From positions 2,684,498 to 2,748,497 of the forward strand of contig NC_049981.1 in NCBI RefSeq assembly GCF_000003815.2: a DNA stretch of 64,000 nucleotides, in the 5' to 3' direction. The stretch comes from Branchiostoma floridae. Its lineage: Eukaryota; Chordata; Leptocardii; Amphioxiformes; Branchiostomatidae. Under the pieces are notes generated by a model, which saw only the letters and a program-made list of their open reading frames with translations, ran no database searches and was not told where the DNA came from. Positions 648 to 64,000 of the stretch are shown here, one piece after another (position 1 is the stretch's first letter; each line of letters starts with the position of its first letter). The position numbers were made by a program, and so were the translations under genes.

Positions 648-3600
648 TCACTTTGCTTTCACTCCTTGAAACTCCTCAGGCAAGCCACCATGGTTCCTGT
701 CAGAAGAATAACAAACAAGAACACAAGTGTTGAAGTAGAGCAGTACTGAAGTTCATTTCTGCATCATCATTTTACTATCCTGTTAAACTTATCTAAACTT
801 CTCCAACACAATCAAAAACAAATATTGTGGAGTACTGGTAGTCCCACACAGACACTGGACTGCCACACAAATGTACCCATTCCCCCCCCCCCCCACAAAT
901 ACACAGCTACAAAATGTTATGTAACCTGTATTTGTACACAAATACACCCACAACTTACCTGTAGTCCCACTCAGCTATACCCCACCCTGGCACTCCATTC
1001 ACGGTGAACTGTGCAAACCCTTCATGGATCTTGGCGGTCCATCCAAACCCGATGTAGAATATCGGTGCACGAAGCACCTTGCATTCCAGGTGATATTTTT
1101 TTCCTCCTGTTGAAGAAGGAAAAGACTGAGGTTTACTAGACATAGCACAGACATATAAACCACCTTGTTTAAAGATGCTAACTAAAATGATCATGAATGA
1201 ATTGTACCCACATCACTTATAATATATGACCTCTGGTAGAATCCCAGGACCATTCATGCAACAACAGCCTCGCCTTGAGGCACACCAGACCATCACACCC
1301 TTCTCTTTTTGAGAATTATTTTTGTGTGTTGAGTTCTTTCATGTGCAGCGAATTGATGCCTGGGGCTTGCAACCTCCCACATACATGCATGGAGCAGCCA
1401 GTTTTACATCACAATCCAAAATGATGAATGGATTCCCTTAAGCCTGCGTCAATTCAAGTGAAGCCGGACAAATTTTTAGATCGGCTGGAGCTTGCCAAAT
1501 TTAAAAATCTCCTGAGCATCAACCATATTTCTCGATGAAAATTTGCCCCATTACAAATGGGGCTGTGCTCTGTATTTTGTTCCCAAAGGTTTAAGTTATT
1601 GTCTTTTCTGCCATTTTGATGAACTTCTGACATCACAAGGACGTTTAAATCCCAATGGACAAGCTGCTAAAAGTCGCCGAAGCCCTATAGTAATCGCCAG
1701 GACGTCGGCCGTACTTTGGCTAAAAAAGCCATTTTCGAGCTCACCAACACATCGGCTGAGCTCAGTTCTTGATTCGTGACATGGGCTTTACAGCATGTCC
1801 GAACTAAACCAACCCTATGATCAAACTCAAGTCCATGTATTTGATCAAGCAGCTGGGTTGCGTTACCACTTGTGCCACAGGGACTTACAGAAGAGATCAG
1901 CCAGTTTCACACACGTACCTGCAATGAAATTGAAAGCAAACGTCTTGGGTTGAACGCCGTCTTCACCACAGGTGGACAGATCCCAGTCCAGTGAGGACAG
2001 GGAGGATTTGCTACCATCTGGATGCATCACGTAGCCCAGAGCCAACCTAGTAACAGACAATGGAGCCACATCAGTTGCAGCCAGGAATGGACAGCATTAG
2101 GGATGGGTACCGGTACAGAAACATCAGGCACAAGTCTGGTTCAGGTCCAGAGGATCAGGTCCAGGTCCTGACCTGAACCTAGACCTGATTGTGAAAACTT
2201 GAATTGTGAATGCCCACGATACTGATCAAAACAATGGTCCATTTTGCCACAAACGAATCTGTTTGATGGAGTATCTCCCACTTTTTATCCTACCTTAATG
2301 TAAGCGATAAGGACCTGCCTCTGTAAGTTTTAGAAGTCTTCGAGACTATAAACTCTACTCTACTTTGCTCATATTTGTTATTTGTCAAATGGCCGAAAAT
2401 TGATGTGCGCACGGATGGGATCCATACAATCACATCAACTTGGCCTTAGATATTATATACATTTTGTAACCCTACCTGGAGGTGGTGGCAGGCATAGATA
2501 CGATCCCAACCATGACACAGGTTCCATCTTCCAGATGCACCATCTGTAGCCCGTATCGGTGAAACAGGCTCCAGTCTCGGTACCTTCCTAGAAATAGAAG
2601 ACAGCATCTACTATATTGTCTTTTTATTCAACTTTAAAGATGTTAATGCAAGAAAAGAAATTCATCGCAATGACTTCATGGACATACAGTTTCTCTTGCA
2701 CAACTGTGATGATCTTAGGTGCACCTGATTTGCCTGGAAGATGTGGCATTATTTTGTTTTTGCATATTTGGTAAACGACAGGTGTAACAGCAAGTTTGTA
2801 CTGAACAGTGCAAACAGCTTATCCAGACAGATTTTTTGAACGACTAAAAAGTACTCTGCACCAAGAGCTATACCTAGCACTTAAAATGATACTGTATCCT
2901 ACCAACCCTACTTTTTTCCACACTGAAATGGGAAACACAACATTTTTTTCCATGCCCCTGCTGGAGTCTTGTGTCAGGTTAAATACTTCAAAATGAGTAC
3001 AACAGAATCAGACACAGATATGTGGAAATATTGTGGTAGAAGTTCTCACCATAGGAGTGGTCTCTCAGCCCTTTGATGTTAATCCTCTTGTCCTGGTACC
3101 CTTCAACACTCACTGTCCCTTCAAATGTGCCAAACTGCTCATAATGTGTCTGGTGCATGCTGCAATCCAAAACAGGGAGAACTCATCTCTTTTCTCATAA
3201 ATCAAACATAAATCAGTGTAATGTCTAATGATTTAAAAGTACAGTTTACATGAAACTACAGTTTTATTAATCATTTTACCTTATGAAACTCACAGTCATG
3301 CATCTAATGTACAATCAACAAGCTATGTATACCTTTATGTTTACAGCTGAGTCAGGTGATGCAAAGGTGCAGGTAATATTAGACACATCAGACTTCTGCA
3401 AATATACTTTCACCAGTCCTGCACTACTTGTTTTCTCCTTTAAGTCCTTAATGAAAACACTTTGAGTTGACATAACAGGTGACTATCAACTGTTCAAGAT
3501 GTCGGCCCAGAGACCACAGACTGTTAGGTTTTATCCACTCATACCAGAAAGGACTCTTTTTGATAAGTTTGGTAGTTTCGTTAACGTGCTCGAGGTGTGG

Positions 3601-6600
3601 TATCAGACATCATCATCAGGGACCTCTATTTAATATCCTATCTGAGGGACAGCCCTAACTGAAGCTATAGGTACTCATTTAACCTGAGTGAAGTAAGGAA
3701 AGTCATGTTACGTGCCTTTCTTAAGGGCACAAGACCAGTGGCACATCAATGGATTTGAACCCAAAACCTCTGGGTTATGAATCAAACACCCTGCCGATTG
3801 CACCGCACGACAACATTTGCATAGAACCCCATTGTTCATGTAAATGTTTAGAATTACTTACTCCTGTAGATTTTGGAAGAATTCCCGACTCCAAGGTTCT
3901 CTTGCCATGGCCTCAGCCACAGCCCAGGGCTCCATGTCTGTGTCAAAGTCGAAGTACGGAGTACAGGCCGTCCAGGTCAGGACAAACTCCGTCTGCAGCA
4001 GCTGGTTACCCTGGTCTACAGCTCTGGGAATTAAATACAAGAACAGTCAAAGTAAAACTATGATGTTGATGCAAGAATATGTTAGTAATCATGTTGTGTT
4101 GTAGCCTGATGAACGTACTAAATAAATGTAGAAGTGAGGTAGCCATGACCTGTAGTTGTAGAAGTGAAACTAGTTGGATAGCCTAATGATTGTACCTATA
4201 GAAGTGACGTTAACGAGGTACAATGTAGCCATGACTGTAGTAACTGTTGTAGAAGTGAAAACTAGTTGGACAGTTGCAAAAGTGGCACCTGAATATGGAA
4301 GCCATCAGTGTACTTGCCATCTTGGTAAGTGATACCAAGTACCACGCCAGTGTCACTTTTATTACACTAGTTCACTTCTTGAATACAGAAAGAATTAATT
4401 GTAAGCTGTGCTACCAGTTTTTTGTCACTTTGATTCTTTTTACAGCATCCATGGTGTCGATTTTGAAAATTTAGCCATCTCGTTGAATTTTTTACCTATC
4501 TTGTTTTTTTTTGCTCAAACCCATTATTTTGCAGCCTGCAGATTATGTCATCCATAAAATTTACCTGCTGTGGCCTAGTTGTAAAACAAGAAGGCTGGTA
4601 GGCAAACTCTCAGCTCTTTTTAGTAACTGTAAATTTGACTTGTGTACACATAATAGAGTGTTACAAGAAAGTTTAGCATTATACTATTAGAAAGGGTTGT
4701 CGAATACCCCTGTCACATTATCCATGATCTTCGGGCGTATTGATGGAAGGTCAGTCATATTTAAGATCGACAGAGGGTTGCGCGTATTTTTTAACCTAAA
4801 AAAAACGTCCCTGTCACATATAAGCCATACTGTATACCTTGTACAATTGTTGTGCAATAAAGTTATTATTACTAGCGAGGCTCAGGCGATTGCCGCAGAC
4901 TCGTCATCCGATCAATTTTCGCAAAATGTGACGGGTATAAGTTAAGCCTACCTGCACCCATTAACAAGAACATTGAAGTTAGGTTCACCTCATTTTCCCA
5001 CTGTAGGACAGTCTCCAGACCTTCATAGGTTCCACCAGCTCCAGACAGACCCCCCCTGCCGCGAACTCCAGGTCCGACTCCCGCTTCATGGACGTGTCGG
5101 GGAGAGACGGGTGTTCCAGGAGACCAATGTCAGGGAACTGGGGGGAATCACACAGGAATATCACATGGGAAGAGAGCTGGAAACTGCTGTATGATGAAAT
5201 CAACAAAAAAACATAGACTATATATTGTGGAAAATTTGGAAGTTCTTCTGTTCCAATTTTACTTTCAGTATTCTGTCACTAAAGAGATCTTCTACGTACA
5301 GAACGGTCTGAGTGGTATGTAACCTACCCTTAAGTACAGAATCGAACAGTCTGAGTGGTATGTGACCTACCCTTAAGTACAGAATCGAACAGTCTGAGTG
5401 GTGTGTGACCTACCCTTAAGTGCAGAACAGTGAGTGGTATGTGACCTACCCTTAAGTGCAGAACAGTGAGTGGTATGTGACCTACCCTTAAGTACAGAAC
5501 AGTCTGAGTGGTATGTGACCTACCCTTAAGTACAGAACAGTCTGCAGCTGAGTGGTGTGTGACCTACCCTTAAGTGCAGAACAGTGAGTGGTATGTGACC
5601 TACCCTTAAGTGCAGAACAGTGAGTGGTATGTGACCTACCCTTAAGTACAGAACAGTCTGCAGCTGAGTGGTGTGTGACCTACCCTTAAGTGCAGAACAG
5701 TGAGTGGTATGTGACCTACCCTTAAGTGCAGAACAGTGAGTGGTATGTGACCTACCCTTAAGTGCAGAACAGTGAGTGGCATGTGACCTACCCTTAAGTA
5801 CAGAACAATCTGAGTAGTATGTGACCTACCCTTAAGTACAGAACAGTCTGGGTGACTTTTCCCGGTCTCCTGGCTGTTGCTGCTACAAAGTACACTCCAT
5901 CCCTGTTAGAGCCATTGAAGTACACTGCATCTACGGCCTGGGTAGGGCAAAAAGAGGTCAAGACATTTTCTGTTGACACAACACAAGCATCATGGTTTGT
6001 TAACTCGAAGCCTAAGTGTGATACCCAGGGACCAGGTAGCTTTTGGAAATGGAAAATATGACAAGAAAGACAACAAAACACGCAGAACGTAAAAAAATTA
6101 GTCCGGAGCATAATTTGTATATTCCTTGGTAAACACTTTTATTTTTCGTGTCCGCAAACATCTTGTTTGGGAAATGGGACCTAAGGCTAAGGAGCTATTA
6201 ACCCCAGAAGGGGTGTTGTCTTCCAATAGATAATTTTAGGTAGAAAAATATGCATACTACATTTGACACCTATATATATTTATATTCCCACCGAGCCAAT
6301 AATTAAAAAACATACAGTGTATGTTGGGTTAGACATACTTCAGGCTAAAAAGGCTACTCTCTCTTGGCAGCCAAGGGCTGAATTGCAAGGCGCTTACAAT
6401 AGGCGGGGCTAAATCGCAAGGGTCTGGAGCGAGCTGCCATTGGCGCCACTCAGGTGACCTCAATAGATCGTTTTCACAGAACGTTCGAAAACCGTTCGAT
6501 CACGCGTGGGCGCCATGTTGGATGATAACCTGGATGACTAGAACACAGAACGGCACCAGCAAAGTTACTTGCGGGTTCAAGTGTGCTGTTTTGTCTCCAT

Positions 6601-9600
6601 TCTGTGAATCATTAAGTGATGTAGCCAAGGTTAGATATCGGGACAAAGTTGCAATAATACGTCTTGACCTATATACTTTTAAAAATGGCACTTTTTTCAA
6701 CGATCTAATGCTGGTGTCGATCGCGAGGATTTACTTTTGCTAAAGCGGGAAGTGGAGTGTTCGCGGTGGTTTAGAGTTCGCGGTGAAGCGGCCTCGCAAA
6801 AACCGCGATCATTCACTGTACCTGGCCCGCTACCCTGGGTGATATCCTTTCACTGACAGGCGGCGTGCAGAGGACTAGCTACCAATCCCCACCGCATGCG
6901 TGCACGAGCTGGCCCTCAATATCCACTTGCCTCACAAGGGGCAAGATTTAGCGCTTCCCCGACCCTAACTCCGTGAGGCAAGCGGATAGTGGGGGCCAGC
7001 GGGATAGTGGTATTAGATAAGTTCGTGCGCGCGTCTTTTTTCCGTATTTTGGCTTTGTCAACATGTGTATTAGAAAGATCTGTTTACAAAATTACAATTC
7101 AATTGATCAACTAACGTTAAACATGCGAATCAGGGCTGCTAGCGCTGACGTTATTGTGACAGACCGTAACGTTGCACTTAATACTGAAAATTCAAACTCT
7201 GAGAATGCTTAGCACATGTTTAGTCAAATGCCAAATTGCGTTTAGTGCCCGTCGCGGCATGGAGGTGACAGAACTCGACCAGACTTGTAGAAACTTCCCT
7301 CGCCACAAGCGCAAAACTCGCTGGAAGACACGCCACACTTTGTCGATTCAATACTAAAATCGTGCGAGATACGGAAGGGGCTGTCGAAGTTTTGTGTAAG
7401 GGTGCGTATATCTGTTGTACATGTAGACCTTACGAAATTCTTTGTACTTTTGCCGTGTCTCAATAAAGAATCTTTATCAAAGTTCGTATGAGGTCCCTAT
7501 GGACTATTTGTCTCTATCAGGCTTCACATATCTCACTGGGAAAAAGCAGAAATTAAACAAATATAGACACTCAGATAACATGTTAGAGAAGTTAGTTGGC
7601 CGAGGGAGTATGGCCTTCGACCTAGCTAACTCCTCTGGCATGTTATCTGTATATATTTGTCCAATTTTATTTTTCCAGCGACCTGTGGAGCACGGTGGGG
7701 GCTAAGAATTTCATACGAACCTCATACGGACAGTCCGTATGAGGTAACGGACTTGAAAGCATACGCATGTGTGACCGCATCCTTCAGGTGCAGTCACACG
7801 GGCGTATATATCAAGTCCATATGAGTCCGTATTGACATTTTTCTTCATATGATCATACCAGTCGTATGAACAATACACACCTCACCTCATACTTTTAGGT
7901 AAGCGTACTGGGCCGTGCTGAGCGTAAAACTGACACAACGATTGAGATGCGCGTGAGGGGTGTATTGTGCCCGTTAACACGTGTAAGTTCCGCATTGACA
8001 TGTTTTGTCTTGCCTTTGGTAAAGTTTGCGACTGAAGAAATTTTTGTTTTGTTCTACCAGCTACACAATCGTGGGTAAAAAAAAGTTCGAATTTCGTTCC
8101 TCGTGAACAAGCCAAACAATTTTTAATCCTCGCTTGATTATCGACAGAACACCGGGGGCAGTACTGGTGAAAATATCATTCACAGCTCAGGACGCGATGT
8201 GCCGTGTTTTATGAAGAAGAAATAGAACAAGCTTGCTGACATTTTCCTGTAACATGGTATACGTCCATGACATACCCTGTACCAGAAACCAACTTTCTCC
8301 CAAAAAATAAAAGAAAGCATGCACAAACTCCGCGGCAGGGCTACTGTTGGTGGGCTGGTAGGAGAGTGGTTTAATCAAGTTATTGAAAAGAGGACGGACT
8401 GTAGGTAATGTTGTTGAATAGAAACGGCGAGTAGGCCGTATCCTGTGTTTATGGAACTCGCAGTTAGCACGGCAAACATCCAGTCCGTTTCTGAATAAAA
8501 AAGGCTTCTTTCCACGTACGAGTCCACCACGTGCAACACACTGCCGTGTGGAGATCGAGCCGCTTATCATCCAACATGGCCGTTCGAACGTTCGAACGCG
8601 ACTGTGACGTCATTGTGAAAACGATCTATACGATAGTAATTGCCCCAGGTGACTGTAGGTTTTGAACCACTCACACCGCACCATTGCACGTGTGGTGGGT
8701 TCTTTAACGTGCCTTTGGTATGACAGGGGACCTCCATTTAGCGTCCTATCCGAGGGACGGCCCTAGCCGAAGCTAAGTACTCATGTTCACCTGAGTAAAG
8801 TGAGGAAAGCCGTGTAAAGCGCCTTTCCCAAGGGCATAAGATCGGCGACACGCAGCCGGATTCGAACTCGAGACCACCCGAGGCAAACACGCTGCCACTG
8901 CAATGTGATCTTACATTGTAGGTAACCCACTGGATAACGGTGAACTAGCATTACCCCAAATACCTTTGGGCGATCCTGTAGTTTCTGTACTTGTTCCATA
9001 TCTGCAATGCTGTTCTTTGACTTGACTCCAATTCCAGCTGCCATGCCTTCTCTTGCCTTAGTGTTCTTGGATTTCCACTGTCAAAAAAAAATGAAAATAA
9101 ATAAACACACATTACCAGGAAGATTACAGATGTTTAGTGTTAGAAAACACCCCACCAGTTAGAAGTCAGAGGGGCCCATTGAAGAGGGGTGGTCTACTGT
9201 AAATGCAGAAATGTTCGTGGTAGATTAATGTTCGCGGTTTTCGCAGTGACCACTTCACCGCAAACTTAAAACCAACGCGAACATTTTTCTATTATGGTAT
9301 TAGACTGCAGTCTATGGTGTTACAGCGAAATTAAAACCACCGCGAAAAGTCATTTTTCCCGCTGCCGCGAAATTAAATCCCCGCAAACTTAAATGCATTT
9401 ACAGTATCTAATGTCCACTAGCCCACCCCACTTGCTTCCCCTATTTATTCCGGAAACCCTCTAGCCCTTCCCTGAACTTTATACCTGGCGCAGGTCAAAC
9501 TCCAAGATGACTTCAAATCTGGGGCATGATGCAAAATGACAACATGTTTGAATACAAACTTAACTAATGTCAATAAACAAATTGTCCAAACCGGCAGGGA

Positions 9601-9916
9601 TCTAGGTAGGATTTTATTTCAGCCAAGAAAGCTCCTTGTTTTAGCGTAGTGGTTACTGGCGAGGCCGGGACCGTTCAGTGACCGAGGTGGGGTGGTGAGG
9701 AAGGGGGTGTCCCCCTTCATCGGAGCGGAGATTTGGCAAATTTTTGCCTACCTTCCTGAGGGCGATGATGCAGACGAACGCCCAGTACTTGAGTCGGTAC
9801 CAGGGCCCGGGCTGAGAGTACACGGCGGCGCGGCGAGGCGGGACCGCCATCAGCAGCTGGGTCAGGACGTACCCGGCTGCACTCAGCACGGCAGCGGCCA
9901 GCAGGTAGTACAACAT
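648..9916 (-). CDS. Membrane-anchored uncharacterised protein, related to the N-terminal module of metazoan PEP-synthase-like proteins
   Basis: Ten coding exons, high to low coordinate: 9916-9752, 9077-8964, 5937-5830, 5137-4989, 4023-3862, 3159-3050, 2587-2476, 2046-1919, 1106-959, 696-648. All borders are AG/GT and phases join without a break, giving 414 residues. Residues 3-24 form a hydrophobic N-terminal segment (starts MLYYLLAAAVLSAAGYV), probably a membrane anchor. Residues 94-130 carry DAVYFNGSNRDG and FVAATARR. Residues 265-291 carry RDHSYGRYRDW, then RYG and LEDG. A final block has GFGWTAKIHEG and ends EWDYRN. From knowledge of the family, this motif order matches the beta-rich N-terminal region (DUF7064/7065 type) of invertebrate 'putative phosphoenolpyruvate synthase' proteins. 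Here the protein stops without any ATP-grasp or phosphohistidine domain. Function is unknown. The start Met is chosen because it opens the hydrophobic segment. Exon structure is sure; the family name is moderately sure. Confidence 0.8.
2097..2350. mobile_element. TIR element fragment, GGTACCGGTAC family
   Basis: Begins GGGATGGGTACCGGTACAGA and holds overlapping GGTCCAGG/CCTGAACC palindromic words. The same start and order occur at 26465-26903, which has both ends, and at 45965-46127 in reverse. The right end here is degraded. It lies in an intron between exons 7 and 8 of the first gene. No coding capacity. Confidence 0.65.
3585..3825 (-). repeat. tRNA-derived SINE copy
   Basis: Read on the minus strand it starts with a tRNA-like head: an A-box-like GGTGCAATCGG and a B-box GGGTTCAAATCC about 35 nt later. 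A body follows with the words TTTCCTTACTTCACTCAGG and GAGGTCCCTGATGATG. The same order is found at 8640-8905, 55765-55870 and 57222-57480. The head-to-body order and the pol III boxes are what mark it as a SINE. Confidence 0.7.
4100..4570 (+). mobile_element. TIR-type repeat copy (GAAGTGAACTAG family)
   Basis: Contains repeated GAAGTGAAACTAG / CTAGTTCACTTC words, a stretch GACACCATGG-type core, and an end TTATGTCATCCATAAAATTTAC. The same segments occur reversed at 40300-40620 and in part at 45355-45482. It lies between exons 4 and 5 of the first gene. Element class is not certain; the exact ends cannot be fixed by eye. Confidence 0.45.
5301..5860 (-). repeat. Minisatellite built from an exon-intron boundary
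   Basis: Fourteen copies of a 36-44 bp unit. On the minus strand each reads CAGACTGTTCTGTACTTAAG or a close variant, then GGTAGGTCACATACCACT. The unit nearest the exon (exon end at 5830) is the real end of exon 3 and its 5' splice site GTAGGT; the other 13 lie downstream in the intron and keep the same GTAGGT site and the last exon codons. See findings. Confidence 0.93.
6375..6450. repeat. Dispersed repeat, GGCAGCCAAGGGCTG family
   Basis: About 75 bp starting CAGCCAAGGGCTG and ending GGAGCGAGCTGCCATT. A near-identical copy lies at 33238-33320. The ends are short inverted repeats (GGCAGC/GCTGCC). Located in the 3-kb intron between exons 2 and 3 of the first gene. Confidence 0.6.
7556..7680. 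mobile_element. Short foldback/MITE copy
   Basis: Imperfect inverted repeat: ACAAATATAGACACTCAGAT at the left pairs with TATCTGTATATATTTGT at the right, and TTAGTTGGCC with TAGCTAACTCCTCTGGCAT further in. The same GCCAGAGGAGTTAGCT word with an inverted partner occurs at 57108-57190. No coding capacity. Confidence 0.55.
8640..8905 (-). repeat. tRNA-derived SINE copy
   Basis: Same family as 3585-3825. The B-box reads GAGTTCGAATCC, and the body has AGGTGAACATGAGTACTTAG and GGGCCGTCCCTCGGATAGG. This copy sits directly downstream of exon 2 of the first gene (exon end 8964). Confidence 0.7.
9195..9406. mobile_element. MITE with TACTGTAAATGCA ends
   Basis: Left end TACTGTAAATGCA and right end TGCATTTACAGTA are perfect inverted repeats flanking 212 bp, with a TA at each border. 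The inside holds several GTTCGCGGT / ACCGCGAA words. A degraded relative lies at 6738-6830. It sits in intron 1 of the first gene. Confidence 0.75.
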
Positions 9917-16407: not shown

Positions 16408-19400
16408 TTAACTCTTTGGATTTAACTCCGGTCCTCCAGTCACAGTTTCGCCGTTACCAACACGTTGTTCCGAATGTTCTTCTCTCCATTCTCCAATGAT
16501 TTCACCAACGTTTTCTGACGTTCCAGGAATGCTAGCAATGTTTTCTGATGTTCTAGGTATAGTAGCAAAGTCTTCTGACGTTCCAGGCAGGACAGTAAGG
16601 TTTTCTGACGTTTTAGGAAAAGTAGCAACGTTTTCTGACGTTCCAGGTATGGTAGCAACGTTTGGAGACATTCCAGCTAGGACAGTACCGTTTACTGACG
16701 CTCCAGGTATGCTAGTAATAACGTTTTCTGGCGTTCCAGGCATGGTAGTAACGTTTTCTGACGTTCCAGGTAGAACAGTAGTGTTTTCTGACGTTCCAGG
16801 TTGGACAGTAACGTTTTTCGACGTTCCTGGTAGGACAGTAGTGTTTACTGACGCTCCAGATAGGCCAGTACTAACGTTTTCTGGCGTTCCAGGTAGGACA
16901 GTAACGTTTTCTGACGTTCCAGGTAGGACAGTAACGTTTTCTGACGTTCCAGGTAGGACAGCAACGTTTTCTGACGTTCCAGGTAGGACAGTAACGTTTT
17001 CTGACGTTCCAGGTAGGACAGTAACGTTTTCTGACGTTCCAGGTAGGGCAGTAACGTTTTCTGACGTTCCAGGTGGGGCAGTAACGTTTTCTGACGTCGA
17101 GGGCATGCAGGTAATGTCTGCGTCATCTGAATTATCCGTACAGTCTGATAAGCCATAAGCTGTCTGGTCTCCACTGACGCTCTTTGTGACCGACACACTC
17201 TGCATTTTAGAGTCCACAAAAGCGACCGTCTCCGGGCCAGTCTTATACAGTAATGTTTTATCGGTAATGTTCTTTGTTGTAGGTAGATTAACTTCGGCTC
17301 TGGCAGCGTAGAAAGTACAGGATTCTGTGTTTTCGTTTTCACCGTTCTCGTTCGGAAAATCTTGTCCTGAATTAGTTTCAGTCCTAGTGTCATCTTTTAT
17401 TTCACTGTAGGTGTGCCCGGCTGCATTGTACACTTCGTCTTCGTTAATTTGGTTGTACAAATTGTCGCTTGTTTGACAGGAGCTCGCTCCTTGGGTCGTT
17501 GTTTCTGAGGAACCACCCTCATACAATTGGTTACTTTGAACGGTAGATGCAGGAAAGTTTGCTCTGTTTCTTAGCGGATTCTTATGACTTCGGCGTCTTT
17601 TTATGTAGCAAAACAAAGTGATTGCAAAAACGCACATTGCAGCAGCTGAACCTGCCAACACAAGGCCCAATGTTACCTGAAACAGGTAAAAAGTGTTAGA
17701 CATTTTTGTAGTTTCTCCTCTGCTAGGAGTTGTATACGTTTGTGTGACGGAACATAGAGATATTCCTGTGATAGTGTTCACGGTACTATTCAGTGTTCGT
17801 GAGATCGGTTCGGTTACATTAAATGAAGGTACGGAGGTTGTATTTTCCAGTGTGCTCATGATATGGTCGAGATGCGTTGATACGTCAACGAACGCAGTGT
17901 TCGTTTCTACAGTCGAGACGGTGCCATTGACAGCAATGTCCCCCGCAAAGCACGCGCTGTCGCCTGCTTGTTGTACATTACTGGACACGTTGAAGAACGA
18001 AACGTCCCGTTGGTGATGAAAAATGACATGGCAGGCCACAAGAAATGTATGAGAATGTCCTCCGCCGTTGTTACTATTTGTAGCTTCACTTGCAGGTTCC
18101 TCAATTTCTGAGACAACCATTTCCTTTTCCATAGTAGGCACCACTAAGGCGAATGTACCTTTACTATATAATTCAGGACCTGGTTTACCGATCGGTCGTA
18201 AGCTATTCACTCTTAGTTCGCGACCGGGAGCACCTTTGAAGGTCAAGTTTAAGCCACCTGTGTACCAAGCTTCCAAACATCGGGTCGGGTGCAAAGAATC
18301 TCCACTATCCGTTGCTATTATGACGAAAGGAGAGTGCGCTGTAAAATGTCCGGGTCTGTCTTTCTCCGAGAACGGTTTACACCGGTAGTGTGGCGTGGTT
18401 GGGGCGTTTAACAGCTTGCCACGCCAGGTGATGGTGAATCGTTCATCGCTAGCATCATAATAGATATCTAGAACGATGCCAACCATCTCCACTCGCATCC
18501 ACTGCCTAGTTTGGTCTTCACAGTTTTGAAACACAACGTCCCATGTCGTGCTATGGTCCGCGTGCAGCCCGTATGCCATACCGAATATGACTCTGCTCAA
18601 GTTCGGTATAGCTAAGAGCGCTTCCCTGTTCAGACATACTACGCCGTTGCCACTTAGATCCAGAAACTGAAGTTTCTGCAAAGGCTCAAACGCATCGCGT
18701 GGGATCGCCTGGATTTTGTTTTCCCGTAGGATCAATGTGTTTAGTCTAAACAAACCAGTAAACCAGTCACTTTGTACACGTTGCAACGCGTTGCCCTCTA
18801 GGTCTAGTGAGTGCAGGTTGTTCTGATTTTCAAAACACGAGGGCTTCAGGCTAGAAATGTGGTTGTGAGAGAAGGAAAGCTTTTGGAGCAACCCGCCAAT
18901 CGGCGAAACAGCGTACCAGTTTTTAGGGACGTATTCCAACATATTGTGATCTAGATTCAAGTTTCGTAAAGTATAGAAATTACTAAAAGCAAAGTTGTCT
19001 ATCTTCTGTATCCCTGCGTTAACAAGAAAAAGACTTGTTAGGGTCATATCGTGGAGTATTGAAAGTTTTTCCGATGACAGTGTCCCAAACCACTGAATGT
19101 GAAGATCTCTTAGGACGAGTAATTTCACCCGCGGAAAGCACTTCCCTGTTGGCATGTCTACACGATTGTTATGGCATGAGATACACAGCTTTTCATCGTC
19201 ATAAATATTGGGAAATTGGTGCCCGTTAATTTGACTTAGTAGTTTGTCCGCGGACACGCACGAAGTCACCGCTTTCCTTTCGCAAGTAGGAAAACACGAC
19301 TCGGGCGCAGATCGGCCGCACATGGCTGATAGAGCGAGAATGATCAGAAGTCGAATGACGAACTCGTGCTGAAAATTCGACTGCATTTTGAACCAAAAAG

Positions 19401-27400: not shown

Positions 27401-30400
27401 GCTGGATTTTGGTCAGTGCTGCACCAGTAAGCGTGCCCATGCCTTCCATGAAGGTGATCCCTTTGATTCCATCCAGCAAATCCTACATACATGTACACGG
27501 AAATAATGGATATATTTGTAGACCAACTATTAGTGAGTATTGAATGTTGCTGTATTCTGTATTATTTTATTTTGCAAATTTATGCCCATGGGGCTAATTA
27601 CAAGTGAACAAAATCAAATACATGAAGTGATTGAAAACAGGTAAATAATCTAAATTCTAGTATACAAAGATATAGGTGATTGATTGGATGTGCATGCAGA
27701 ATATAGAATAGGGTTCTAAACTTATAGCGGAGTTTGACTTCTTGACAGTTGAAAATGAAACGTGACGTGTTTTCTATGCTAGAGTGATTCGATGATATTA
27801 GTAGGAAGAATACCTTTTGCGTTTATTTAACAATGGAAAGCTTTGTGTGATATCGGTTTCTTTCGTCATCGAATCGGGGACATTCACAAATGAATTGTGT
27901 TTCAATTTATTTATTTTTATTTTTATTTATTTCATCTTGAGACAGATGGGTTACCCCTACAACAGTGCATACAGTAGTTGATTTCCAAGGGGGCCCATCA
28001 AACATACATGTAAATAATAAATACAGGACAAAAACATGATAACAATCAGTCAAACTTTGAACACCAGGGACAACATACAGTACAGAAAACATAAAACCGG
28101 TGCGTCAAAACATAATCAGTGTCCATACTCATGTCGAAAACGTTCCAAGGTCAAAATCAATATGTCAAGAGATGGGGTGGAGGTCAGAGGTCAAATCATA
28201 TATCAAATCATGTGTAAAACGAAAATTAATGAAACTGAAATTTACAAAGCATGGATACTAAATCATATGTAGAGATTGAACAAACAAAAAAATTTAAAGA
28301 ATAGTAAGGCACATCAGAGACAAAGGTGCTTTTCCATACTAAGTTTCAATATTACTTGAGGTCAGATAAACATATGTTCTTCAGAGCTGTTTTAAAGCCT
28401 TTTAGTGTTGTGATGTTTCTTATGTTATCTGCTAGTTTGTTGTACAGGCTAGTTCCAGTGTATGCAAATGTTTTTTGTCCACATGTGGTGGTGTAGCTTG
28501 GTGGGTGTAGTTTAGTGGTCTGCCTAGTGTTGTAAGTATGGATACGAGAGTTGTGCTGAAATGTGGCGGATAGGTATGTTGGTGCCAAGCCTGTCAGACA
28601 TTTGAAAACCATAATGCACGTGTGCTCAAATCTCCTATCAGCCAGGTATTTCCAGTTGAGAGTTTGGTGGAGGTTCACAGTGCTGATGTCCCGTTGCCTA
28701 CGTTGTAGCACCACCCTAGCCGCTCTGTTTTGTAGTATTTGTAGTTGCCGTTGTTTGGTGGCCCCACAGGTTCCCCAGACAGTGTCACAATAGTCGAAAA
28801 TAGGCAATATCATAGTCTTGTACAACATGTCAGCAATACTGAAAGTCAGGCAGTGTCTGAGGCGTCTAAGTAGTCCAATCCTTTGTGACACCTTACTACA
28901 AACTTTGTCTATATGTTCATTAAAGGACAGGTGGGAGTCAAGGTACAGACCAAGATATTTGAACGTATGAACTCTTTCTATGATTTCTTGGTCAATTTTG
29001 ACTGTCAAGGACTGTGCTTGCTTTAACCTGTTAGCAGTGCCAAATAACATCCATTTAGTCTTGGTTACATTTAATGTTAAACGATTTGTTTGGAACCAAG
29101 TGGCCAAACCAGAGAGTTCATAGTTCAGAATTGACTCAATATGTTTTACATTGTTGCTGGGATAGAATATTGCTGTGTCATCAGCATACAAACATATTTT
29201 ACATGTGGTAACTACATCAGGTATATCATTAATAAATTAATTGAAGAGCAACGGGCCCAGTATGGAACCCTGGGGCACTCCCACTGTAACAGGTAAGTAT
29301 TCTGACCTACAACCATTCAGAGAGACAATTTGTTGTCTCCCCGACAGGTAGTTACTGAACCAAAGATGCTCAATATCCACTACACTCGTCGTGCACTGCT
29401 TACAAAGTCTTTCATGAACAGGTAGCTTGTCAAAACGTAGGCGATTTATAGCCGATATAGGAGTCACGTTTGGGACAGCATTCTCACTGCTGCAGCGCCA
29501 CCTACATCGGCTATAATTAGCAGTGAGAAGCAGATCCAGCCATTCTAACCCTGGTGATGGTGTCTGATAGACACTGAAGCGTTGGAAGTGAGTACAACTT
29601 TTGGTTGTGTTTCAAGAACCTCACTATATTGAGTATCTACCGACCTGGTGAAATTATTTACGGAGTACGAGGGGCGTTTAATAAGTAATAACTCTGACCC
29701 ACTTCCAGTTGTCTGATCTAGATGAAATTTTGCATGTGTAATGATTCATATCTCTATAGTTCATGTTGCAAAAAAGAGCTCTAATTGTGGTTTCTGATTT
29801 ACTGGTGTTTGAACTGAGTGTTAAATGGACAAGGTGTGAAATGGAGCCAGTTGAGTGTCGCGCAGTGATCCGGTTTTTGTATTTGAAAGGACGCACACCA
29901 AAGAAGACTTTTGATGAAATGAAAGAAACTTATGGTGATGATGCCCCATCATATGACCTTGTAAAACGCTGGCATCCTGAATTCAAACATGGCCGGAAAT
30001 CTGTGGAAACAGCTCCCAGACCTGGTCGTTCCTCTTCCGGATCCTCCATTTATGAGGCATCTGTTGAAGGACCAACCTGGGGTATCCTACAAAAGCGGTG
30101 TCCAGAACTGCATCAAATGATGGGAGAAATGCATAACTCTGGGTGGTTCCTATGAAGAGAAATACTAATAACTGTGCCAAGTTTCATTAATCTCCTGCTA
30201 TGGGAAATGAGTCAGAGTTATAACTTATTGAACGCCCCTCGTATCAATAGTGACATTACCTGTCGATTGTTGAACTGGTTCAGCCCAATCTCCTTCTGCA
30301 CCCCGATGGCGTACTGGTACACGCCCACCCGGGCACCGTTGGCACCGAAGTCGAAGCCAGCTGCCAGGGTGAGGACAAAGTTCTTGACATCCGGGAAGTT

Positions 30401-55600: not shown

Positions 55601-58600
55601 TAGATACCACTTGTAATTGGTTCACTGATAGATCTTTTCTAACAGCTAGACATTTTATAATATTTTTTTCTATTTGGACAGACGGGGACAATGTGGCACA
55701 GTACAAACAGAAGGTAAAGGTAGTCTTTTCTTTTACCTCCCCTACTGAAGTCAGATACGCATTATTACACCTGGGTGAAGTGAGGAAGGTCGTGTAAAGT
55801 GTCTTTCCTAAGGGCACAACGTCGGGGGCAAAGCGGGTATCGAACTCGGGACCTCTAAATTCCCAGCTGAACGTGACATAAGAACGTGAGAAATGTGACA
55901 TAAAAGCAGTATGTCACGTTGTGGTACTCTTAGACTAGTTCCTAGCCTGTGATGTTATTGTACCCACCTGTGAAAAGGTCTGCAGCCGCTCCAAGATCGT
56001 CCGGACTCGCTCGCCAGATCTCCTCCATGTTCCTGTACTTCAGTCGGTTCGCCTTGTCCTGGTAGTCCAGCCGCCCGAAGAAGAACCCGTCAAATCCCAT
56101 CTAGAAAAAGAGAATATAAGGAAGGCTCTTCAGCGGTTTTAGTCCACAGAGAAAGTGTACAGTTAATAGAATAGAATAGATAGCATTTGTGGCTGTACAG
56201 GACACAATTTTTTGGTGGTGGATAGCTCATGTGCTCGGAAGAAGTCACAAAGTTTGGGCCACCTAGCATTTATTTCTGGAATCGCAGTGTCGTTTTTGTC
56301 AAAAATTTCAGAAGAGGATAACTCAGGAAAGGAATAAAGGATTTTCACGATTTTTGGTACGCAGGTAGCTCAGCGTTTAAGATGAAATATCATTTTTGCA
56401 AAATAGGAGGGAAGAAATTTGCCCAATTAATGTGAAAATTCCGTCAGAGCGCGCAGTTTTCAAGGTACATCCATCTAAGCCCCAGACATAATATGGTCTT
56501 GACATTTGAATGTCTGATAGCAAAAAGGTCAGGATAAAGAGAAGCAAGTTTGGGCTCCCTATCATTTAATTTTAGAACTGCAGGGGCGTTTTTACGAAAA
56601 TTTCCAAACACTGAATAATGATGGGAGCTTCGTACTTGCATGACTTGTGACATGTGACATTTAGTTGAAGGTGAATATCAACATGCATAAATTATGAAAA
56701 TTAGTGAGTAATTTGTATTGAGTCTATTTTATAGACGTATGAGGTCTCCAAATTCTAGTTTGATTTTTTATAGGCAACATGTTCGGTTGCATTTACCTGC
56801 GCGAACAGTGAGGCCTGCTCACGGGAGTGTCCGAAAGGATCTATGTGCCAGGCCGCTAGGGGGCGCCCGCACTCCCCAAACGTGCTGTTGAGGAACTGCA
56901 GACCCACAGTCATCTGGTCGATGATAGCGTTGTAGTGCGTACTGGCCTCGTCATTCATGCACCAACCTCCGTTTATAAACTCCAGCTGGCCTGAAGAAAG
57001 ACAGAACAGTTTTATTCTCAATGTTTCGTCACAGAGCGCGCACCCAGAATTTAATGTACACGGTATATGGCCTCTACCTTCACAGGTCTCAAGAAAAATA
57101 GAAATTGGACAAATTCAGATGACATGCCAGAGGAGTTAGCTGAACGAGGAGTATGGTTTGCGAACTAGCTAACTCCTCTGACAGTCATTTATAAATGCCC
57201 TGAAGAAGATCACAGTTGGTGGCATCGTGTGGCGCAATCGGCGAGGTGTTTGGCCAAACCCAGAGGTGCTGGCCATGGGTTCAAATCCGCTAATGTGCAC
57301 CTATGTTGGGAAATGCCTTTTACACGACTTTCCTCACTTCACTCAGGTGAAAATGTGTACCTAGAGTCCCTCGAATAGGACATTAAATCAAGGTCCCGTA
57401 TGCGTGTTGGGGAGAGGCACCAACTTAAGGAAAAGAGTAGGGGTAGGTTGATCAAACCGCTAATGGTCTGGTCTCCGGGTTGACTTCTTGACAAGGTTTT
57501 AGTCACATTTTATGTCAATCCTTCCACAAATGTTGTAAAACTAAATTAACAATAAATATTTGTTTAATGGATGAAGAATCTTGTGATTCGGTTCGTACCT
57601 TTACCGACGAGTTTCCTGACCCTATCCCTCATGTCTCCGTCCTGTTCCTGCCACCACCGGTAGAAGAACGCCATCTCCACGTAGATGAACGTCCTGCTCG
57701 GCTTCATCTCCAACTGGGGGATGACTGAATCCAGGATGTACTGAACACCCGCGATCTGGATACTGTTATTGGCTGGGAAAGGACAACATGATCTTTGAAA
57801 CATCTTGAGAACAAGGCTGAGTGAAATAAATAATAGAGGTTTATGCTCATAGAAGTTTTTGCCACGGAAATCTTGTTTCTTGCGCATTGTATGTGTTTTA
57901 TAAAAGCTCTGAGTCATTGAGAGAGCTACCCCAGGAAAGGAAGAGAGAGAGAGAGAGAGAGAAACAAAGAGAAAGAGAGCGAGAGAGAAGGGGAGCGCGC
58001 ACGTGCGCGCGCGCTAGAGAGAGAGACAGACAGAGAGACAGAGATAGAGAGAGACATGGAGAGAGAGAGACAGAAAAATCTGAGACAAACGGAGACAGAG
58101 AGAGAGAGGGTAAGAGAGATAAGAGAGCGACACAGTAACAGTGGCATAAGGAAAAGGATGACAGAGTGGAAAATAGATAGGAGAGAGGGGAGACACAGAA
58201 AGAGAGCTAGAGAGGTAAATCCAAAGTGAGAGAAAGTGAGAGAGTGAGAGAAAGATGGAATGAGAGAGAGACTTGTACCTCCGTAGTAGTACTGGTCCAC
58301 AGTCTTGAGCCAGCCGACGTCGTCATGAGTGTGGGGCACCAGGTGCACATTTACATAGCCTGGCTTCACAGGCAGCGCCGCGCATTTCTGCAAGAAGATT
58401 AACCGCGAAGATACATGAGTCTGTTTCTAGGGTCTGCATATAAGCCTTCTTTCGTAAGATCAGACTTTAAAAAATTCTGGTTATTTTGATAGAGATGATT
58501 AACGAATTGAAATTATGTAAATGAACCTTATTTCCATAATCAATGAGAAATACACAAAATACATCAGTAGTAAAGGCTAAACTTATGGCGCTGTTATGGG

Positions 58601-60591: not shown

Positions 60592-63500
60592 CCTTTCGGT
60601 AACCGCAAAGAGACCCCATACGATCGAACTTTCAGAATCTTGAAGAAAATGTGCGTTACTTCTATCACTTGAATTCAATGAGAGGACAAAAAGTGATTTG
60701 AGTACTAAAAATTACTTCCTTATATTTGTACAGGGCTTGAAAGCGAATGAAGGGTCGCCTAGTAACCGCTAAGCGAACCTTTCGGTAACCGCAAAGAGAC
60801 CCCATACGATCGAACTTTCAGAATCTTGACGAACATGTGCGTTACTTCTATCACTTGAATTCAATAGTCAAGCTGTCAGGAGAAGACCACAAGTGATTAG
60901 AGTATAGTACTATGAATTACTTCCTTACTTTTCTACAGGGCTTGAAAGCGAATGAAGGGTCGCCTAGGTAACCGCTAAGCGAAAATTTCGGTAACTGCAA
61001 AGAGACCCTATACGATCGAACTTTCAGAATCTTGAAGAAAATGTGCGTTACTTCTATCACTTGAATTCGATAGTACAACCCGTAAGGAGAAGACAAAAAG
61101 TGATTTGAGTACTAAAAATTACTTCCTTACTTTTCTACAGGGCTTGAAAGCGAATGAAGGGTCGCCTGGGTAACCGATAAGCGAACCTTTCGGTAACCGC
61201 AAAGAGACCCCATACGGTCGAACTTTCAGAATCTTGAAGAAAGTGTGCGTTACTTCTATCACTTGAATTCAATAGTACAACCCGTAAGGAGAAGACAAAA
61301 AGTGATTTGAGTACTAAAAATTACTTCCTTACTTTTCTACAGGGCTTGAAAGCGAATGAAGGGTCGCCTGGGTAACCGCTAAGCGAACCTTTCGGTAACT
61401 GCAAAGAGACCCCATACGATCGAACTTTCAGAATCTTGAAGAAAATGTGCGTTACTTCTATCACTTGAATTCGATAGTACAACCCGTAAGGAGAAGACAA
61501 AAAGTGATTTGAGTACTAAAAATTACTTCCTTACTTTTCTACAGGGCTTGAAAGCGAATGAAGGGTCGCCTAGGTAACCGCTAAGCGAACCTTTCGGTAA
61601 CCGCAAAGAGACCCCATACGATCGAACTTTCAGAATCTTGAAGAAAATGTGCGTTACTTCTATCACTTGAATTCGATAGTACAACCCGTAAGGAGAAGAC
61701 AAAAAGTGATTTGAGTACTAAAAATTACTTCCTTACTTTTCTACAGGGCTTGAAAGCGAATGAAGGGTCGCCTAGGTAACCGCTAAGCGAACCTTTCGGT
61801 AACCGCAAAGAGACCCCATACGATCGAACTTTCAGAATCTTGAAGAAAGTGTGCGTTACTTCTATCACTTGAATTCAATAGTACAACCCGTAAGGAGAAG
61901 ACAAAAAGTGATTTGAGTACTAAAAATTACTTCCTTACTTTTCTACAGGGCTTGAAAGCGAATGAAGGGTCGCCTGGGTAACCGCTAAGCGAACCTTTCG
62001 GTAACCGCAAAGAGACCCCATACGATCGAACTTTCAGAATCTTGAAGAAAATGTGCGTTACTTCTATCACTTGAATTCGATAGTACAACCCGTAAGGAGA
62101 AGACAAAAAGTGATTTGAGTACTAAAAATTACTTCCTTACTTTTCTACAGGGCTTGAAAGCGAATGAAGGGTCGCCTGGGTAACCGCTAAGCGAACCTTT
62201 CGGTAACCGCAAAGAGACCCCATACGATCGAACTTTCAGAATCTTGAAGAAAATGTGCGTTACTTCTATCACTTGAATTCGATAGTACAACCCGTAAGGA
62301 GAAGACAAAAAGTGATTTGAGTACTAAAAATTACTTCCTTACTTTTCTACAGGGCTTGAAAGCGAATGAAGGGTCGCCTGGGTAACCGATAAGCGAACCT
62401 TTCGGTAACCGCAAAGAGACCCCATACGATCGAACTTTCAGAATCTTGAAGAAAGTGTGCGTTACTTCTATCACTTGAATTCAATAGTACAACCCGTAAG
62501 GAGAAGACAAAAAGTGATTTGAGTACTAAAAATTACTTCCTTACTTTTCTACAGGGCTTGAAAGCGAATGAAGGGTCGCCTGGGTGACCGCTAAGCGAAC
62601 CTTTCGGTAACCGCAAAGAGACCCCATACGATCGAACTTTCAGAATCTTGAAGAAAGTGTGCGTTACTTCTATCACTTGAATTCAATAGTACAACCCGTA
62701 AGGAGAAGACAAAAAGTGATTTGAGTACTAAAAATTACTTCCTTACTTTTCTACAGGGCTTGAAAGCGAATGAAGGGTCGCCTGGGTAACCGATAAGCGA
62801 ACCTTTCGGTAACCGCAAAGAGACCATATACAGTCGAACTTTCAGAATCTTGAAGAAAGTGTGCGTTACTTCTATCACTTGAATTCGATAGTACAACCCG
62901 TAAGGAGAAGACAAAAAGTGATTTGAGTACTAAAAATTACTTCCTTACTTTTCTACAGGGCTTGAAAGCGAATGAAGGGTCGCCTGGGTAACCGCTAAGC
63001 GAACCTTTCGGTAACTGCAAAGAGACCCCATACGATCGAACTTTCAGAATCTTGAAGAAAATGTGCGTTACTTCTATCACTTGAATTCGATAGTACAACC
63101 CGTAAGGAGAAGACAAAAAGTGATTTGAGTACTAAAAATTACTTCCTTACTTTTCTACAGGGCTTAAAAGCGAATGAAGGGTCGCCTAGGTAACCGCTAA
63201 GCGAACCTTTCGGTAACCGCAAAGAGACCCCATACGATCGAACTTTCAGAATCTTGAAGAAAATGTGCGTTACTTCTATCACTTGAATTCGATAGTACAA
63301 CCCGTAAGGAGAAGACAAAAAGTGATTTGAGTACTAAAAATTACTTCCTTACTTTTCTACAGGGCTTGAAAGCGAATGAAGGGTCGCCTGGGTAACCGCT
63401 AAGCGAACCTTTCGGTAACCGCAAAGAGACCCCATACGATCGAACTTTCAGAATCTTGAAGAAAATGTGCGTTACTTCTATCACTTGAATTCGATAGTTA

Positions 63501-64000
63501 CAACCCGTAAGGAGAAGACAAAAAGTGATTTGAGTACTAAAAATTACTTTCCTTACTTTTCTACAGGGCTTGAAAGCGAATGAAGGGTCGCCTAGGTAAC
63601 CGCTAAGCGAACCTTTCGGTAACCGCAAAGAGACCCTATNNNNNNNNNNNNNNNNNNNNNNNNNNNNNNNNNNNNNNNNNNNNNNNNNNNNNNNNNNNNN
63701 NNNNNNNNNNNNNNNNNNNNNNNNNNNNNNNNNNNNNNNNNNNNNNNNNNNNNNNNNNNNNNNNNCAGGGCTTGAAAGCGAATGAACGGTCGCCTGGGTA
63801 ACTGCTAAGCGAACCTTTCGGTAACTGCAAAGAGACCCCATACGATCGAACTTTCAGAATCTTGAAGAAAATGTGCGTTACTTCTATCACTTGAATTCGA
63901 TAGTACAACCCGTAAGGAGAAGACAAAAAGTGATTTGAGTACTAAAAATTACTTCCTTACTTTTCCACAGGGCTTGCAAGCGAATGAAGTGTCGCCTGGG
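60592..64000. repeat. 202-bp tandem satellite array
   Basis: About 17 units, starts near 60592, 60778, 60984, then every 202 bp (61186, 61388, 61590, 61792, 61994, 62196, 62398, 62600, 62802, 63004, 63206, 63408, then 63612 and 63814 after two 1-bp insertions). Each unit begins CCTTTCGGTAACCGCAAAGA and contains TTACTTTTCTACAGGGCTTG. Units are very similar except the first two, which are diverged and of odd length, as expected at an array edge. The array runs off the end of the window. The N run at 63640-63765 fits the unit spacing exactly. Confidence 0.97.
63640..63765. other. Assembly gap inside the satellite
   Basis: 126 N. The unit phase is kept across it (63612 to 63814 is 202 bp), so its length is real and not nominal. 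Confidence 0.99.

Follow-up and report, generated by a model that had tools for sequence, protein, structure and literature searches.

Minisatellites that duplicate exon-intron boundaries, or mirages, have already been described in amphioxus genes (PMC3087553, PMC3902484). The name was given in Adh3, whose boundary-spanning repeats have units of 10-72 bp and show somatic instability (cited in PMC3087553), and length instability belongs to the published class (PMC3087553). Tandem repeats also span exon-intron boundaries in BflGb6 and BflGb9 (PMC3087553), and repeats of 60 bp and 108 bp lie at splice sites of PGBD5, alongside which TnC is cited (PMC3902484). Adh3 data and globin RT-PCR suggest that splicing is regular despite the mirages (PMC3087553). 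A new intron made by tandem duplication has also been reported (PMC4974935).

The window, i.e., the whole stretch of 64,000 nucleotides from Branchiostoma floridae analysed here, contains an array that has the structure by which mirages are defined (Table 1): its repeat units carry AG/GT splice signals, AGG/GTAGGT (here and below, the slash marks the cut) being found at 14/14 donors. It is a new case of a published amphioxus peculiarity, a class that the sequence-only reading preceding this analysis had not recognised. TRF returned 14.0 copies with a period of 36, together with a second row on 5431-5847 that corresponds to a 116-bp higher-order period within the donor array. The 13-mer CTTAAGGGTAGGT has 14 exact matches on the minus strand, one per donor; when up to two mismatches are allowed, only those 14 sites are found and none elsewhere in the window. 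The number expected by chance in the window is 1.48, and 14 matches were reached in 0/100 shuffles. From donor 1 to donor 14, the first intron bases are located at 5829, 5791, 5755, 5719, 5683, 5639, 5603, 5567, 5523, 5485, 5449, 5413, 5370 and 5327 of the minus strand, with successive spacings of 38, 36, 36, 36, 44, 36, 36, 44, 38, 36, 36, 43 and 43. These data bear out the sequence-only reading that had preceded this analysis, which described 14 tandem copies of an exon end plus its donor spaced by 36-44 bp and 13 surplus donors inside the intron (donors 2-14, at 5791-5327). The same reading saw CTTAAG/GGTAGGT in every copy: the letters are correct but not the cut, as a GT donor requires CTTAAGG/GTAGGT.

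Table 1. Coordinates of the array, its donors and the host gene in the window
Feature	Position	Strand	Basis or remark
Mirage minisatellite, 14 donors, 36-44 bp units, 116-bp higher-order repeat	5309..5847	-	TRF and 13-mer count
Donor 1 (AGG/GTAGGT), first base of intron 3	5829	-	Sole full-frame donor of 14
Decoy donors 2-14 within intron 3	5327..5791	-	First intron bases 5791 ... 5327
Truncated last exon-tail copy CAGACCGTTCTGTAC, without donor, closing the array	5296..5310	-	Read from sequence
Host gene, DUF7064-containing protein, function unknown	648..9916	-	Predicted model and Pfam PF23212
Exon 1	9916-9752	-	Predicted model
Exon 2	9077-8964	-	Predicted model
Exon 3, 108 nt, phase 0, AVDAVYF...TVLYLR; last 21 nt are the authentic repeat tail	5937-5830	-	Open frame, splice-consistent model, homologous residues in two paralogs
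Intron 3, 692 nt, missing from both C6 paralogs	5138..5829	-	Model and paralog comparison
Exon 4, 149 nt, FPDIGLLEHP...	5137-4989	-	Predicted model
Exon 5	4023-3862	-	Predicted model
Exon 6	3159-3050	-	Predicted model
Exon 7	2587-2476	-	Predicted model
Exon 8	2046-1919	-	Predicted model
Exon 9	1106-959	-	Predicted model
Exon 10	696-648	-	Predicted model

The repeat unit is made of the last ~21 nt of exon 3, the donor GTAGGT and ~14 further intron bases. The repeated exon piece, CAGACTGTTCTGTACTTAAGG, had been estimated at about 20 nt, which is close to the ~21 nt found here, and its copies vary: the tails ahead of donors 2-14 (n=13) match it at 15-21 of 21 positions. The 13 units between donors are 36, 38, 43 or 44 nt long; units 3, 4, 6, 7, 10 and 11 are mutually identical, and units 5 and 8 are also identical. 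Their alignment has 28 invariant columns out of 44, and every donor 13-mer is intact. A block of 36-36-44 units recurs in the array, which suggests that several units were exchanged at once. The conservation of the donor 13-mers across variable units would be explained by homogenisation, and selection may also contribute. An over-expansion of the copies during assembly has to be considered, as short, near-identical repeats are error-prone and one globin mirage was apparently misassembled in an earlier genome draft (PMC3087553). However, the ordered and distinct variants of the four unit lengths are not expected of simple stutter and the contig is chromosome-sized (34,247,348 bp), which makes such an artefact very improbable. 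When 5301-5860 was used as a DNA query against 513,431,437 bases in 431 contigs, its sole match was itself, in a search that skips very common words and thus leaves uniqueness unproven.

The array had been assigned to the end of exon 3 (..VLYLR), and the predicted host gene agrees with this, since exons 1 and 2 are found upstream in a model of 10 coding exons. This minus-strand model, built by eye and script, encodes 414 aa without internal stop, and its exon 3 closes with the codon AGG (R), in phase 0, at 5830. Residues 274-396 match the Pfam domain DUF7064 (PF23212; E 1.6e-7, 32.1 bits for a cut-off of 24.7), while residues 232-271 give a DUF7065 match that is below cut-off. A search of the genome for the DUF7064 family gave no match and missed the window gene itself, and is therefore insensitive to intron-split genes. 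Solved structures searched by sequence gave only one match (E 0.53), which is not useful.

The 14 donors are predicted to be equivalent for U1 pairing: the energy of their duplex with the 5' end of U1, which reflects donor strength only roughly, is -9.7 kcal/mol for 14/14 donors. It is -7.0, -8.0, -8.1, -11.2, -9.8 and -12.1 kcal/mol for six other donors of the gene (the donors of exons 1 and 2 being left out). Such equal pairing suggests that the donor would be chosen by its position and not by its sequence. Joining at donor 1 gives a gap-free frame that matches two paralogs (see below), and donor 1 is the only one among the 14 that keeps the frame. If exon 3 is extended to any of donors 2-14, it reads VGHILLRLFCT followed by TAA (13/13), the stop being the 12th extra codon. 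This TAA ends 2 nt before the donor 2 junction and 38 to 466 nt upstream of the other junctions; even the extensions to donors 9 and 13, with lengths divisible by three, run into it. The earlier prediction that the next donor adds 38 nt is confirmed by the spacing between 5829 and 5791. The frame shift expected from this extension was an incomplete account, the true effect being an in-frame TAA at all 13 later donors.

The same reading proposed a role of the array in buffering or varying donor choice; such a buffering or decoy function is not supported. It can be viewed as follows: the later donors would either serve as decoys for U1 or, as a U1-rich enhancer, promote exon definition, and copy number would tune the ratio of productive to NMD-bound mRNA. 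Intact donors with equal predicted pairing fit this scheme, as does the stop reached from every decoy, which a poison-type switch would need. However, the identity of the copies can be explained by homogenisation alone, and no conservation is seen, as the array only matches itself in the genome and the intron is missing from the paralogs. Furthermore, data on mirages at other amphioxus loci suggest that splicing is undisturbed (PMC3087553, PMC3902484). Taken as a whole, a selected role of this kind appears improbable.

The array might also supply in-frame microexons of 18 nt (TVLYLR or a close variant) between exons 3 and 4. In units 1, 5, 8 and 9, an AG immediately precedes an 18-nt copy of the exon tail that ends at the donor, in the right phase. 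This arrangement is missing in 9/13 units, no strong polypyrimidine tract is seen by eye, and very short exons are poorly recognised, so that such microexons are hardly credible.

Two paralogs of the window gene are carried by contig C6 (12925802-12929438 and 12959793-12967172) and share 41 and 39% identity with it over the joined exons. Among the best 20 and 15 candidates scored, the gene loci found in the genome are the window gene and these two. In both paralogs, the residues of exons 3 and 4 belong to one continuous exon and intron 3 is absent. Seven other introns (2, 4, 5, 6, 7, 8 and 9), read by hand, agree in position and phase with the paralogs. For introns 4, 5 and 8 the agreement covers both sides, whereas for introns 2 and 7 it is seen at the acceptor alone and for introns 6 and 9 at the donor alone (no counterpart of exons 7 and 10 was found in the paralogs, and intron 1 was left out of the comparison). 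This absence of intron 3 from both paralogs, with seven other introns in agreement, is a new observation. It would be explained equally by a gain in the window gene or by a loss before the two C6 genes diverged. TRF found no array in the C6 paralog sequence L019; the C6 paralog L020 carries large arrays, but in another intron. The two large intronic arrays of L020 (2427-2998 and 3027-4337) are made of one ~51-bp unit in opposite orientations, whose consensus holds CAG/GTGAGT, CAG/GTAAGA and TTTGATTACAG motifs, and they are located >1 kb from the nearest recognised exons.

The idea that intron 3 arose when an AGGT exon segment was duplicated was rejected as unsupported, the predicted end homologies being missing. 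The stretch of intron included in the unit shows no similarity to the beginning of exon 4 (its score is attained in 984/1000 shuffles), and in the remainder of intron 3 the only similarity to exon 3 comes from the final copy of the array itself. Intron 3 might nevertheless be a young intron, born from its own mirage array and still mostly made of it, i.e., an intermediate of minisatellite-driven gain in which the array gave the donor and most of the length, a route that has been proposed for amphioxus globin introns (PMC3087553). Besides the comparison with the C6 paralogs, the share of the array in the intron (521/692 nt, TRF bounds) is consistent with this. On the other hand, an ancestral loss on the C6 side explains the three gene loci found equally well, the coincidence of the odd intron with the array amounts to a 1-in-8 chance event, and the end homologies of AGGT duplication are missing. 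Such an origin is unlikely.

Donor arrays were also counted in a fixed-position sample of the genome, made up of twenty 10-kb stretches from seven contigs (200,000 bases including 19,834 N). Arrays were defined by a TRF period >=15 and >=2.5 copies, such rows being merged, and a strong donor by a U1 energy of -9.5 or better. The 57 TRF rows of the sample yielded 22 merged arrays that cover 7,043 bases. Two strong donors on one strand are found in 2/22 arrays (L035:7102-7510 and L036:7830-8096), a single one in 2/22 and none in 18/22. Strong donors number 138 in the sample (0.383 per kb and strand), and the arrays taken together show no enrichment for them (6 seen versus ~5.4 expected from sample rate and array length), which suggests that mirages are at most a minority of arrays. 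The L036 array is not tied to an exon. The region 7036-7510 of L035 is likely a second exon-end mirage, with a donor present three times at ~136 bp spacing and one copy changed: the boundary AAG/GTGAGA recurs as AAG/GTTAGG and AAG/GTGAGG, three in all. The corresponding exon (DDACRLWCQ...ICVKGSCK) has a Pfam match to Adt-1-like (E 7.3e-6, 26.7 bits), which is below the cut-off of 31.8 and which we take to be of ADAMTS type; Salp15 (23.4 bits) and DUF6436 also match below cut-off. At least one further boundary array is thus likely present in the ~180 kb of readable sequence, a frequency that is poorly fixed by such a small sample.

Other repeats occur in the window. The array at 16507-17097, made of CCAGGTAGGA units, was considered as a second mirage and rejected, as it lies inside a 1015-aa stop-to-stop frame of the minus strand with LRR matches (Pfam LRR_8, E 1.5e-23; a membrane span is seen by eye). 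Its 19.5 copies of a 30-bp unit encode repeats of ten residues (like ENVTVLPGTS) towards the end of this frame. Both this minisatellite and the intron 3 array are tandem and have a similar repeat size, but the former is coding within one long frame, whereas the latter is intronic except for its first exon-tail copy. Further along, 14.6 copies of a 202-bp unit (96% matches) extend over 60680-63636 and resume past an N gap to 64000, most of them carrying an acceptor-like TTTTCTACAGGG on the plus strand. Exon pieces of a glycosyl hydrolase 38 (alpha-mannosidase) gene are found at 57564-58426 on the minus strand (Pfam E 6.4e-8, one piece searched), adjoined by AG/GA-rich repeats. By their motifs, fragments at 28352-29611 (minus strand) resemble a non-LTR reverse transcriptase and those at 29760-30155 (plus strand) a mariner-type transposase.

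The array is very probably an amphioxus-type mirage, a minisatellite that has grown through tandem duplications spanning the junction of exon 3 and intron 3 and has no selected function. Combined with the data on the donors, the following scheme may be drawn for such a mirage. The array would expand and homogenise through unequal exchange or replication slippage and would be tolerated because all the extra copies are intronic. Splicing would take the first, exon-proximal donor, as it closes the shortest exon (108 nt) with the exon 3 acceptor and is transcribed first. Transcripts spliced at a later donor would carry the TAA and would probably be cleared by nonsense-mediated decay. Exon definition with the near acceptor, the order of transcription and the decay of errors are the likely grounds for the choice of donor 1. 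With fourteen donors that are identical over 13 bases, 36-44 bp apart and of which only the first is in frame, the locus provides a natural test of positional donor choice by the spliceosome. Should intron 3 turn out to be a gain, the locus would in addition show directly that lancelet introns can arise from minisatellites.

The window array thus belongs beside the mirages of Adh3, BflGb6, BflGb9, TnC and PGBD5, from which it differs by its location in another gene. With the AGGT intron gain, the window array has in common a tandem duplication across an exon-intron boundary, but the AGGT system is reported to yield a new intron (PMC4974935), whereas intron 3 may have been gained in the window gene or lost on the C6 side and the end homologies are missing. 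Set beside the known amphioxus mirages, it combines 14/14 intact donor 13-mers, units of 36-44 bp and a 116-bp higher-order repeat with an intron that is missing from two paralogs.
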